Shown here: positions 3,491 to 30,475 of the stretch, piece after piece
Layout: the number at the start of each line of letters is the position of its first letter
Position numbering within the stretch: the first letter of the stretch is position 1
Assembly (NCBI GenBank): GCA_030148745.1
Contig: JASBSV010000047.1
Coordinates: forward strand, 1-34,310
Direction of reading: 5' to 3'
Source of the DNA: Paracoccaceae bacterium
GTDB taxonomy: Bacteria > Pseudomonadota > Alphaproteobacteria > Rhodobacterales > Rhodobacteraceae
DNA length: 34,310 nt
Translations under genes and position numbers: made by a program
The notes under the pieces: model-generated
Database searches by the model: none
What the model saw: only the letters and a program-made list of their open reading frames with translations
What the model was told of the DNA's origin: nothing

Positions 3491-3506
3491 CTCACGCTTA
3501 AGTGAG
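3491..3506. other. inverted repeat in the ycjX leader
   Basis: CTCAC, six bases, GTGAG lies 21 bp upstream of the ycjX start in the truA-ycjX divergent gap. It is a possible operator or leader hairpin. The stem is only five base pairs, or seven with one wobble, so chance is a realistic explanation. Confidence 0.25.
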
Positions 3507-20263: not shown

Positions 20264-21154
20264 ATGACCACATTCACCGCACTGACGACACTGACCGGCA
20301 AGGACCGCGCCGAGGCGCTGGGCGAGGCGATGGAACGGGTTCAGCCCGAACCGACCGGCGTCGGCGTTTTCGAGGTCGAAGACGGCTCGGGCCTGTGGGA
20401 GGTCGGCGGCTATTTCGAGGGCGCGCCTGACCCCGCCGCCCTTGCGCTTCTGGCCACCGCTTTCGGCGCCAGACCCTTCGCGGTGTCCGAACTGCCCGAA
20501 ACCGACTGGGTCGCCAAGGTACGGCGCGAGCTGGCCCCGGTCGAAGCAGGGCGCTTTTTCGTCTACGGCAGCCATGATGCCGACAAAAAACCGACCGATC
20601 CTGACCGCATCGCGCTGCTGATTGAGGCGGCGATGGCCTTTGGCACCGGCCACCACGGCACCACATTGGGCTGCCTGCGCGCGCTTGACCGGCTTGTGGT
20701 TCAGGGATTTGCCCCCAAAACCATCGCCGATATCGGCTGTGGCACTGCGGTTCTGGCCATGGCGGCCAGCGCGGTCTGGCCCGTCGTCTCGCTGGCCAGC
20801 GATATCGATGCCGTCGCTGTCGAGGTCGCTCAGGCCAATGTCGATGCCAATGGCATGACCGGAAGCGTGCGCTGTCTCGAGGCGGCCGGCGTCGATCACC
20901 CCGAACTGGCGGCGGCGGCGCCTTTCGATCTGATCTTTGCCAATATCCTCAAAGGTCCGCTGATCGAACTGGCACCGGGAATTTCCAGCGTTTCTGCCCC
21001 CGGAGGAAAGCTTATCCTGTCGGGGATTCTGAACGAGCAGGCCGATGAGGTTTTGCGCGTTTATTGCGAAAACGGCTTCAATCCCGATCAGCGCGAAGAG
21101 ATTGTTGAGTGGACGACTCTGACCCTCACAAAAAAGAATCCAGTAAAGTCTTAA
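20264..21154 (+). CDS. prmA: ribosomal protein L11 methyltransferase PrmA
   Basis: The product has 296 residues from ATG 20264, preceded by AAAGGA. PrmA trimethylates lysines and the N-terminus of ribosomal protein L11 using S-adenosylmethionine. It has the N-terminal substrate-recognition domain (about 1-90), the linker MAFGTGHHGTTLGCL near residue 125 and the methyltransferase motif ADIGCGTAVLAMAA, then FDLIFANILKGPLIEL. These are diagnostic. The gene is 25 bp behind the acetyltransferase gene and ends in a TAA that is part of a CtrA-like site. Confidence 0.94.
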   Translation: MTTFTALTTLTGKDRAEALGEAMERVQPEPTGVGVFEVEDGSGLWEVGGYFEGAPDPAALALLATAFGARPFAVSELPETDWVAKVRRELAPVEAGRFFVYGSHDADKKPTDPDRIALLIEAAMAFGTGHHGTTLGCLRALDRLVVQGFAPKTIADIGCGTAVLAMAASAVWPVVSLASDIDAVAVEVAQANVDANGMTGSVRCLEAAGVDHPELAAAAPFDLIFANILKGPLIELAPGISSVSAPGGKLILSGILNEQADEVLRVYCENGFNPDQREEIVEWTTLTLTKKNPVKS

Positions 21155-21165
21155 TTTTACCTTAA
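21151..21165. promoter_or_regulatory. CtrA-like site TTAA-N7-TTAA
   Basis: TTAA (21151-21154), seven bases, TTAA (21162-21165) is a full match to the core of the alphaproteobacterial CtrA consensus TTAA-N7-TTAA(C); the base after is T, not C. It overlaps the prmA stop and lies 85 bp before the start of the next gene, in an AT-rich gap. Confidence 0.5.
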
Positions 21166-21250: not shown

Positions 21251-21604
21251 ATGACGAATACTTACTTTACGGACTTTGACGACAGAACAAGACGAATTGA
21301 AAAAGCGCACCGCCGACTGGCGCGCGGCTATGTCACCACGGTCACCCGTGACGGGGTGATCATCCATCGTCCGATACGGCGCTACGGGCCGTCACTGCGG
21401 GGGATATTTCTGACCTTTGCCGCGCTCTTGGGGTTCAAGGTGCTGCTTTATACCTACCTTGGCGCCATCGCCTATGACGGGCGCGTTGCCGATCTTGCCG
21501 GCGGCACGGTGATCGAATCCATCGGCGCCTGGGTGATGCAGGCGGATCCGGTCACGGTCTGGATCTCGCAAGGGGTGCTTGAGCTGCTGGCGCAGTTCAA
21601 CTGA
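21251..21604 (+). CDS. small membrane protein of unknown function
   Basis: The 117-residue product is not recognised. Residues 1-48 are charged and probably cytoplasmic (DDRTRRIEKAHRRLARGYV), then one clear membrane helix runs from about 51 to 70 (FLTFAALLGFKVLLYTYLG). The rest, IAYDGRVADL to WISQGVLELLAQFN, would be periplasmic with a weakly hydrophobic amphipathic end. The start at ATG 21251 follows a GGGGG ribosome-binding site. It stands alone between prmA and a bidirectional terminator, with its own 96-bp upstream gap containing a CtrA-like site. Unknown function; a cell-cycle link would be inference from that site. Confidence 0.75.
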   Translation: MTNTYFTDFDDRTRRIEKAHRRLARGYVTTVTRDGVIIHRPIRRYGPSLRGIFLTFAALLGFKVLLYTYLGAIAYDGRVADLAGGTVIESIGAWVMQADPVTVWISQGVLELLAQFN

Positions 21605-25697: not shown

Positions 25698-26327
25698 ATG
25701 ACGGCGCAGGAGATTGAGGCAATGTTCACCCGCGCGGGCGAGGGATTTGTCTTTGCCCGTTGGGGGCGGCCGATCGCACCGATCATTTTCGGGGTCGACG
25801 ATGCTTCGCTTGCGGTTCTGAAAGGCGCGATCGAGGCGATGGTGAGCCTTGCCGGTCATCAGATGGCCGAGACCGATCCTGAGCTGGGCGCCAATCTGAT
25901 GCTGTTTTTCATCCGCGACTGGGACGAGTTGACCGAGACGCCCAATCTGGCCGAGCTGGTGCCCGATCTGGGCCCGTTGGTGGCGCGGCTTGAGGCGCAG
26001 GGCGCCAGCCAGTACCGTATGTTCCGCTTTGACGAGGCCGGCGCCATTCGCGCCGCTTTTGTGTTCGTGAAGATGACGGATGAGATGGCGGCGCAGCCGG
26101 CCGCGACGCTGGCGCTGTGGCAGATGGTACAGGTGATCCTGCTCTGGTCGGAGGCGGCATTTGCCGGGGCTTCGCCGCTGATGCGCCCCGAGGGGCAGGA
26201 TATGGCGGTGCTCAAACCGCAGATCGCGGCGCTGATCAGGGCCGCTTACGATCCGGTTCTGCCGGCGGCAAGCCGCGAGCCCAGTCTGGCGCTGCGGCTT
26301 TTTGCGCGTCTGCAGGTGATGTCGTGA
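25698..26327 (+). CDS. conserved-looking protein of unknown function coupled to ybgC
   Basis: The 209-residue product is not recognised as a named family. It has no signal peptide and no clear membrane helix, so it is probably cytoplasmic. It is rich in Ala, Glu and Leu, with FVFARWGRPIAPIIFG near residue 17-32, NLMLFFIRDWDELTETPNLAELVPDLG in the middle and several long helices. The ATG at 25698 follows GGCGGGGGCGG. Its stop overlaps the GTG start of ybgC, so it is translated together with the Tol-Pal gene cluster. From memory, similar proteins occupy this position in other Rhodobacterales; any role in Tol-Pal is inference from position. Confidence 0.8.
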   Translation: MTAQEIEAMFTRAGEGFVFARWGRPIAPIIFGVDDASLAVLKGAIEAMVSLAGHQMAETDPELGANLMLFFIRDWDELTETPNLAELVPDLGPLVARLEAQGASQYRMFRFDEAGAIRAAFVFVKMTDEMAAQPAATLALWQMVQVILLWSEAAFAGASPLMRPEGQDMAVLKPQIAALIRAAYDPVLPAASREPSLALRLFARLQVMS

Positions 26328-26713
26328 AGGGGCGCTTCGATGTTCATGTCTATTACGAGGACACCGATCTGGCCGGGATCGTCTATTACGCCAATTACCT
26401 GCGGTACATCGAGCGCGCGCGCACCGAATGGGTGCGGATGCTGGGCATTGATCAGCGGGCGCTGAAGGCCGAGCGCGGAGTCGTTTTCGCGGTGCGCCGG
26501 CTGGAGGCCGATTATCTGGTCCCGGCGCGGTTTGACGAGGATTTGACGGTGCTGACCGAGCCAAAGGAGATCGGCGGCGCGCGGCTTGTGCTGGAGCAGG
26601 GGGTCTGGCGCGAGGGGCAGCTGTTGTTTCACGCCATTGTGACCCTTGTGGCGCTGGGCGAGGCAGGGCAGGCGGTTCGAATGCCAGCAAACATCCGCCG
26701 ACGATTGCAATAG
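26324..26713 (+). CDS. ybgC: Tol-Pal associated acyl-CoA thioesterase YbgC
   Basis: The 129-residue hotdog-fold protein carries the 4-hydroxybenzoyl-CoA thioesterase signature YYEDTDLAGIVYYANYL at 10-26, with an acidic catalytic residue in EDTD. The start is GTG 26324 overlapping the previous stop (GTGA). YbgC hydrolyses short or medium acyl-CoA and is the usual first gene of tol-pal clusters; why it travels with them is not known. About 100 bp separate it from tolQ, and this gap has its own promoter-like sequences. Confidence 0.95.
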   Translation: MKGRFDVHVYYEDTDLAGIVYYANYLRYIERARTEWVRMLGIDQRALKAERGVVFAVRRLEADYLVPARFDEDLTVLTEPKEIGGARLVLEQGVWREGQLLFHAIVTLVALGEAGQAVRMPANIRRRLQ

Positions 26714-26747
26714 TTCGCCGCCCCGACCTGTTTTCTTGGCAATCCCC

Positions 26748-26776
26748 TTAATTTGTGAGTAACTAGCGCGTAACTA
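26748..26776 (+). promoter_or_regulatory. three 11-bp phased half-sites upstream of tolQ
   Basis: TTAAT (26748), GTAAC (26759) and GTAAC (26770) recur with an exact 11-bp period; the last two extend to GTAACTA. The first pair is also TTAA-N7-GTAAC, one mismatch from a CtrA site. A TTGGCA at 26736-26741 could be a -35 element with TAACTA as -10. Tandem sites spaced 11 bp are typical of OmpR/PhoB-family regulators. Confidence 0.5.
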
Positions 26777-26812
26777 AGGGCGACGAACGGCCCGGCAGGA
26801 GCGAGCAGGCAT

Positions 26813-27478
26813 ATGGATGACTTTTCGATGTGGGCACTTTTTGCCCGCGCGACCCCGATAGTGAAACTGGTAATTCTACTGTTGATCGGGGCCTCTTTCT
26901 GGGCATGGGCGATCATTTTCCAGAAACTGATCAGCTATCGCGAGGCGCGGCGTGAGGCGGCGGTTTTCGACCGCTCTTTCTGGTCAGGCGAGCCATTGGA
27001 TGAGCTGTTCGAAACGCTGGGCCCCGAGCCGAAGGGCGCCTCGCAAAAGATCTTTGCGGCGGGGATGAGCGAATGGCGCCGCAGCCACCGTGAGGACGGC
27101 AGGCTGATCGCCGGGGCGCAGGCGCGGATCGACCGGTCGATGGATGTGGCGATCGCCAAAGAGGCGGAGAAGCTTAACAAGGGGCTGGCGTTTCTGGCCA
27201 CGGTCGGCTCAACCGCGCCCTTTATCGGGCTTTTCGGGACGGTCTGGGGCATCATGAACGCCTTTGTCGAGATTGCCGCCCAGCAGAACACCAACCTTGC
27301 CGTGGTGGCGCCGGGCATCGCCGAGGCGCTTCTGGCGACCGGCTTTGGCCTTTTGGCGGCCATTCCGGCGGTGATATTCTATAACAAGCTTTCGGCTGAC
27401 AGCGACCGCATCACTGGTGGTTACGAGGCCTTCGCCGATGAATTTGCGACAATCCTCAGTCGCCAGCTGGACAGCTGA
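26813..27478 (+). CDS. tolQ: Tol-Pal motor protein TolQ
   Basis: TolQ forms, with TolR, the proton-driven stator complex in the inner membrane. The 221-residue protein has one N-terminal membrane helix (about 16-36), a large cytoplasmic loop and two helices in the second half (around 120-145 and 160-185). GSTAPFIGLFGTVWGIMNAF and the IAEALLATGFGLLAAIPAVIFYN segment are the family signatures; the Thr and Glu residues in them lie near the proton path. The start is ATG 26813. tolR follows after 3 bp. Confidence 0.96.
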   Translation: MDDFSMWALFARATPIVKLVILLLIGASFWAWAIIFQKLISYREARREAAVFDRSFWSGEPLDELFETLGPEPKGASQKIFAAGMSEWRRSHREDGRLIAGAQARIDRSMDVAIAKEAEKLNKGLAFLATVGSTAPFIGLFGTVWGIMNAFVEIAAQQNTNLAVVAPGIAEALLATGFGLLAAIPAVIFYNKLSADSDRITGGYEAFADEFATILSRQLDS

Positions 27479-27481
27479 GCG

Positions 27482-27967
<486 letters not shown>

Positions 27968-30406: not shown

Positions 30407-30475
30407 GATGCGTTTTCAAATCGAACGTAAAATGGTACAGATAATGCAACCAACAAAAATGAGCAGGACAGAGAC

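Follow-up and report, generated by a model that had tools for sequence, protein, structure and literature searches.

The interval 26748-26776, which lies between ybgC and tolQ, is most probably the downstream half of a sigma-70-type core promoter of tolQ together with its transcription start, and we put the probability of this reading at about 80%. Three TAA-type motifs within the interval, which the preliminary description of this DNA had taken for half-sites of a regulator of the OmpR/PhoB family, are best read as part of the promoter spacer, as the -10 hexamer and as the start region, their 11-bp phasing being incidental. RNA polymerase would recognise TTGGCA and TAACTA, 18 bp apart, and transcription would begin near A26772, so that the leader would be some 41 nt long and have a short hairpin close to its 5' end. 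We infer the sigma factor, the exact start site and the promoter activity from sequence comparison. The features discussed below are collected in Table 1. The window is the whole stretch of DNA analysed (34,310 nucleotides), and it belongs to an assembly of 2.87 Mb in 140 contigs that is 87% complete.

Table 1 Predicted and compared features around the start of tolQ in the window
Feature	Positions	Strand	Basis or remark
ybgC-tolQ intergenic region with putative tolQ promoter and leader	26714-26812	+	99 bp; ybgC stop codon 26711-26713, tolQ ATG 26813
Place of the relatives' CenR box, decayed here (CCGACCTGTTTTCTT)	26723-26737	+	matrix score -6.0; L002 -7.6
Putative -35 element TTGGCA	26736-26741	+	TTGGC 83-100% per base in 72 promoters with 18-bp spacer
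TTAAT, part of the -35/-10 spacer	26748-26752	+	promoter alignment
CtrA-like TTAA-N7-GTAA	26748-26762	+	one mismatch
Weak CenR-like match in reverse orientation, TTACGCGCTAGTTAC, spanning -10 to +1	26759-26773	-	matrix score 7.4
Putative -10 element TAACTA (second motif GTAAC, 26759-26763)	26760-26765	+	aligned to TAGAAT/TAGCGT of relatives
Third GTAAC, inferred transcription start region	26770-26774	+	+1 at about A26772, 6 nt past the -10; inferred
Candidate hairpin GGGC-8-GCCC early in the presumed tolQ leader, close to the mRNA 5' end	26778-26793	+	covariation in relatives
GAGCAG, ribosome-binding-site region	26803-26808	+	nearly invariant in 66 aligned leaders
tolQ (221 aa)	26813-27478	+	

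The phased repeats

Across the interval the window reads ...TTGGCAATCCCCTTAATTTGTGAGTAACTAGCGCGTAACTAAGGGCG..., and the letters and positions of the repeats are as first described: TTAAT begins at 26748 and GTAAC at 26759 and 26770, in exact 11-bp phase upstream of tolQ, and GTAACTA is common to the last two motifs (26759-26765 and 26770-26776). In dinucleotide-shuffled sequence a phased triple with at most one mismatch is expected 0.02 times per 34 kb (2 of 100 shuffles held one), an expectation that is qualified by the pattern having been fixed post hoc from this very sequence. The exact triple is found once in the assembly of the organism, as is the reversed control pattern, while GTAAC-N6-GTAAC is found once against four occurrences of its backward control. 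Neither the triple nor the pair is thus commoner genome-wide than its controls, and this search for the 11-bp tandem motif gives no sign of a regulon carrying it.

Conservation was judged on 109 distinct regions upstream of tolQ, the window included. They derive from 80 named loci, the best 80 of at least 561 encoding a relative, and from 28 loci of genomes of the same family, taken from the 30 best matches minus the window itself and L083; L082 and L083 were dropped as duplicates of the window and of L002, respectively. Closely related species, many of them Ruegeria, are over-represented and species may recur across both sets as different strains, so that counts given here are not counts of independent events. 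One assembly of the same genus was found, G001, with a tolQ that is 91% identical; the 90 bp before tolQ are the same in G001 and in the Paracoccaceae MAG that contributes L002, and both were counted as one. Only the window and L002, 2 of the 109 regions and both of a single genus, have the TAA triple or the TAAC pair; the other 107 lack them. The conservation upstream of tolQ that a regulatory array would lead one to expect is therefore nearly absent, which argues against a tandem array of the OmpR/PhoB type.

The probable tolQ core promoter

A two-box promoter model, seeded with words picked by eye, refined by EM, and both fitted and counted on the same sequences, was confident in 80 of the 109 regions at rounded thresholds and in 79 at the unrounded threshold, with 29 regions not confidently placed. 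It describes a promoter of the form TTGGC-N18-TAnnnT, with A or T following the TTGGC, that is common across the family, and 72 of the 79 located promoters, including that of the window, have the 18-bp spacer. In these 72 promoters T26760 and A26761 are invariant (72/72), the GG of TTGGC is kept in 97-99%, and the two adenines at 26772-26773 are found in 60% and 89%, respectively. Of the three repeats, one thus falls on the -10 hexamer, one on the presumed start and one in the spacer, where TTAA is seen in 6 of the 79 located promoters (window, L002, L031, L040, L061 and L062). The -35 element of the window stands at the conserved place and agrees with TTGACA in five of six bases. The -10 element, 18 bp away, agrees with TATAAT in two of six and lacks the final T that 85% of the relatives have. 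Because this -10 element is weak, and because a generic consensus scan of 26600-26900 reported no promoter, the promoter assignment rests on positional homology. A reading of TTGGC as part of a sigma-54 element (TTGG-N10-GC) was rejected, as that pattern is present in only 8 of the 79 located regions.

Comparison of the two members of the genus points to constraint on these bases. The window and L002 are identical at 25 of 29 positions in 26748-26776, compared with 67% of third codon positions in tolQ (n = 220) and 49% in ybgC (n = 127), so that the bases of the interval look constrained. From the -35 element to the hairpin 52 of 62 bases agree, whereas only 10 of 22 do so just upstream of the -35 element, which suggests that the core is constrained in the genus and that the stretch expected to hold a CenR box is not. 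Between the two boxes the window has changed bases that the relatives conserve, at A26752 (85%) and G26758 (81%), yet window and L002 mostly agree there too, including all three TAA cores. This agreement suggests some genus-specific constraint beyond what the promoter reading explains.

Part of the interest of the case is that short repeats phased by 11 bp in a promoter can be merely its spacer, its -10 hexamer and its start site.

Transcription units

The preliminary description had proposed that tolQRAB-pal-cpoB is regulated apart from ybgC. The promoter outlined above supports a start of tolQ's own, and the placing of pal-cpoB in the same unit is left without support. In Rhodobacter sphaeroides tolQRAB is described as a transcription unit whose start site has been mapped, and pal-cpoB as a separate unit that is not CenR-regulated (PMC9275681, PMC10470753); ybgC has no mention in the available part of PMC9275681. 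R. sphaeroides and the window are alike in that tolQ has, or is predicted to have, its own promoter. The gap between tolB and pal in the window (30407-30475) is 69 bp long and AT-rich, and the best match to the CenR weight matrix in it scores 3.6, which is not a good match.

CtrA as a possible regulator

The first pair of motifs had been noted to fit the CtrA full site, TTAA-N7-TTAA, with one mismatch. The mismatch count is right, whereas the full motif is not present and matches of this quality occur at chance level: with at most one mismatch the window holds 2 (one of them exact, at 21151) against 1.21 expected, and 31 of 100 shuffles reach 2. It is conceivable that CtrA binds TTAA-N7-GTAA and represses tolQ, since the match overlaps the -10 element, as the half-sites of CtrA-repressed promoters are described as doing (PMC6180460, which also gives the full site), and CtrA is encoded in the genome. 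Against this stand the chance-level frequency and the presence of a CtrA-like match in only 4 of the 109 tolQ regions (window, L002, L024 and L100), and we consider repression by CtrA very improbable; CtrA binding at tolQ in the window is possible but unsupported. The exact CtrA-type full site, TTAATTTTACCTTAA at 21151-21165, overlaps the stop codon of an ORF, which we take to be PrmA-like, and lies about 85 bp before the ATG at 21251.

Regulators encoded in the genome

Eleven proteins of the genome match the OmpR-type DNA-binding domain, 10 of them above the cut-off, and 8 of the 11 were covered by an NCBIfam scan. It assigned L119 to CtrA (427.7 bits, cut-off 350) and L113 to PhoB (341.3, cut-off 296.2). 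L117 is presumably a ChvI-like regulator. L121 fell below the cut-off of every NCBIfam family among the 25 listed. When numbered from a start at MGTLKK, L121 has D at positions 11-13, 51 and 56, and no other start tried in the 11 proteins gives this match; the same positions are discussed for CenR of R. sphaeroides (PMC9275681). The DNA upstream of L121 carries ACACGTCCGCGTGAG, which agrees with the published cenR site, ACACGAGCGCGTGAG, at 13 of 15 bases and scores 5.9 on a matrix from which the published cenR site was left out, and a reversed match overlapping it scores 9.8. We regard L121 as a good candidate for CenR.

The CenR box at the -35 element

The preliminary description had pointed to control of envelope genes, including tol-pal, by CenKR in R. 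sphaeroides. For tolQRAB this is borne out, as CenR activates these genes directly according to ChIP-seq, RNA-seq and gel shift data (PMC9275681), a link repeated in PMC10470753 and cited in PMC10746171; it does not extend to pal-cpoB, which according to PMC9275681 is not CenR-regulated. The CenR site at tolQ of R. sphaeroides is TGACGCAGATGTGTT, the CenR consensus is TGA-N8-TGA, and the box at tolQ was proposed to be conserved in alphaproteobacteria (PMC9275681). As reported there, 28 of 31 CenR sites are directly upstream of the -35 element and all 31 are less than 100 bp upstream, and CenR-repressed genes have their sites between the -35 element and the start, reversed in two cases out of three.

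A CenR weight matrix was built from the other 30 sites in Table 1 of PMC9275681, the tolQ site being excluded, and on it the 31 published sites score between 1.0 and 15.0. TGACGCAGATGTGTT recurs letter for letter in L039, L043, L070, L071 and L098, where it runs into the GGC of the same TTGGC -35 element that is found in the window. In relatives that have it, the CenR box overlaps the -35 element and begins 25 bp upstream of the position of the first TAA repeat. At this fixed place 32 of 80 located promoters score at least 4, and in 26 of 80 the fixed place is the best of 292 placements. Those scoring at least 4 include Frigidibacter, Rhodovulum, Salipiger, Seohaeicola, Shimia, Aliiroseovarius, Gemmobacter and one of two Tropicimonas. 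Scores are low in Leisingera and in Ruegeria, where the best is 4.0 in L055, the sole Ruegeria to reach that value. This suggests that only some of the Rhodobacteraceae compared have a recognisable box where it would be expected. Where the CenR box overlaps the -35 element elsewhere, Ruegeria and Leisingera show GGTGGTT(C/A)TGTTGGC and variants of CCTGTTTTATTGGC.

In contrast to the tolQRAB promoter of R. sphaeroides, that of the window has no recognisable CenR box, and its TAA repeats lie downstream, over the spacer, the -10 element and the start. Like the CenR consensus, they consist of short half-sites that begin at 11-bp intervals (3 + 8; PMC9275681 speaks of 10 bp). They differ from it in their half-sites, which read TAA(C/T) on the plus and TTAC/TTAA on the minus strand, in their position and in not being kept outside the genus. 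The published motif TGA-N8-TGA is not found in the repeats, the conserved place itself scores -6.0, and the interval is located downstream of the -35 element, unlike the CenR sites of activated genes. Due to the decay of the box in this genus, CenR control of tolQ would here be either lost or exerted from elsewhere. Among the matches listed in our literature search, titles and abstract openings contained no report that the CenR box had been lost, which is no proof of absence. The case of the TAA repeats illustrates that a published link between a regulator and a gene needs checking against the position of the box in relatives.

Could CenR act on tolQ from another place?

One such place would be 26759-26773, where CenR, bound in reverse over the -10 element and the start, might repress tolQ in this genus in place of an activating box at the -35 element. 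Among 292 placements within the 160 bp preceding tolQ, this match shares the top score with 26737-26751 on the plus strand, and that score lies within the range of the published sites (1.0-15.0), only 2 of 31 of which are lower. Position and reverse orientation would also suit the sites of repressed genes in PMC9275681, which lie between the -35 element and the start and are reversed in two of three cases, and a CenR candidate is encoded in the genome. However, 45 of 109 orthologous regions have a match of at least 7.35 outside the conserved place, and the position equivalent to 26759-26773 in L002 scores 5.3; for these reasons the match is not counted as a CenR site. Its half-sites, moreover, are TTAC, whereas the cenR candidate of this genome has a GTGAG-type site, as in R. 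sphaeroides, so that the CenR recognition sequence is not obviously changed. Repression of this kind is, in our view, quite unlikely. Unlikely, too, is the wider proposal that tolQ has been rewired in the genus, with loss of the CenR box at the -35 element and gain of a phased array over the -10 element and the start that would be read by reversed CenR or by another regulator of the OmpR family. If true, such rewiring would have turned control of tolQ from activation to repression.

A different place is offered by the best match to the CenR matrix in the 34-kb window, TCACGCCATTGTGAC at 26629-26643 inside ybgC, from which CenR might control tolQ instead of from 26748-26776. With 15.0 it equals the best published CenR site, it precedes the tolQ start by 184 bp, and at the homologous ybgC codons 19 of 100 aligned relatives reach 7.35 and 10 of 100 reach 9 (8 of 108 could not be aligned there). 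On the other hand, L002 scores -0.4 at these codons, the 31 sites of PMC9275681 are all closer than 100 bp, and the encoded peptide FHAIVT, written in random synonymous codons, attains a score of 15 or more in 10% of draws and of 9 or more in 51%. Control from within ybgC is therefore highly improbable, and the match, which is not shared with L002 and follows largely from the peptide, was treated as a coincidence. The second-best match of the window to the CenR matrix is at 3491-3505 on the minus strand (13.6), with a match of 9.7 on the opposite strand one base on.

The tolQ leader

Downstream of the inferred start, many relatives carry inverted repeats of differing sequence, such as GGCCG/CGGCC, GCCGC/GCGGC, GGTCG/CGACC, GCCTC/GAGGC and GCCCC/GGGGC. 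An alignment of 66 of the 109 leaders, from which poorly located promoters and rows more than 80% alike were omitted (L002 among them), contains a helix of six pairs with changes on both sides at all six, a number reached by 9 of 500 shuffles. Paired cells make up 73.5% in this helix; shuffled alignments give 68.2%, with none of 500 reaching the observed value, and sliding the helix gives 43% at most. The stem of the window itself is displaced by one base relative to this helix. The 5' arm scores 13.4 on average against its own 3' arm and 11.6 against swapped arms (sd 0.23, largest of 1000 = 12.4), with a score of at least 12 in 58 of 65 usable rows, which 56% of swapped pairs attain likewise. 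In a scan of all 109 leaders the best stem averages 14.2 compared with 11.5 after shuffling, a modest difference; 23 of 109 are clearly above, and some of the best stems are elsewhere. RNAalifold predicted no pairs on the leader alignment. Of four leaders (4/109) folded singly against shuffles, the window (z = -0.38), L039 (-1.19) and L070 (0.01) were not clearly better, and L062 was (-2.08).

Taken together, the aligned leaders suggest a short covarying hairpin right after the inferred tolQ start in many Rhodobacteraceae. A hairpin at the 5' end of the mRNA might possibly slow its decay and act as a stabiliser. Titles and abstract openings among the literature matches listed made no reference to a tolQ leader hairpin, which does not prove that none has been described. 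The 7 Rfam matches with E values up to 10 in 26000-27600 were all far below the gathering scores, and none of them covered 26714-26812. The GAGCAG that precedes the start codon of tolQ differs from the textbook AGGAGG and is nevertheless nearly invariant in the 66 leaders.
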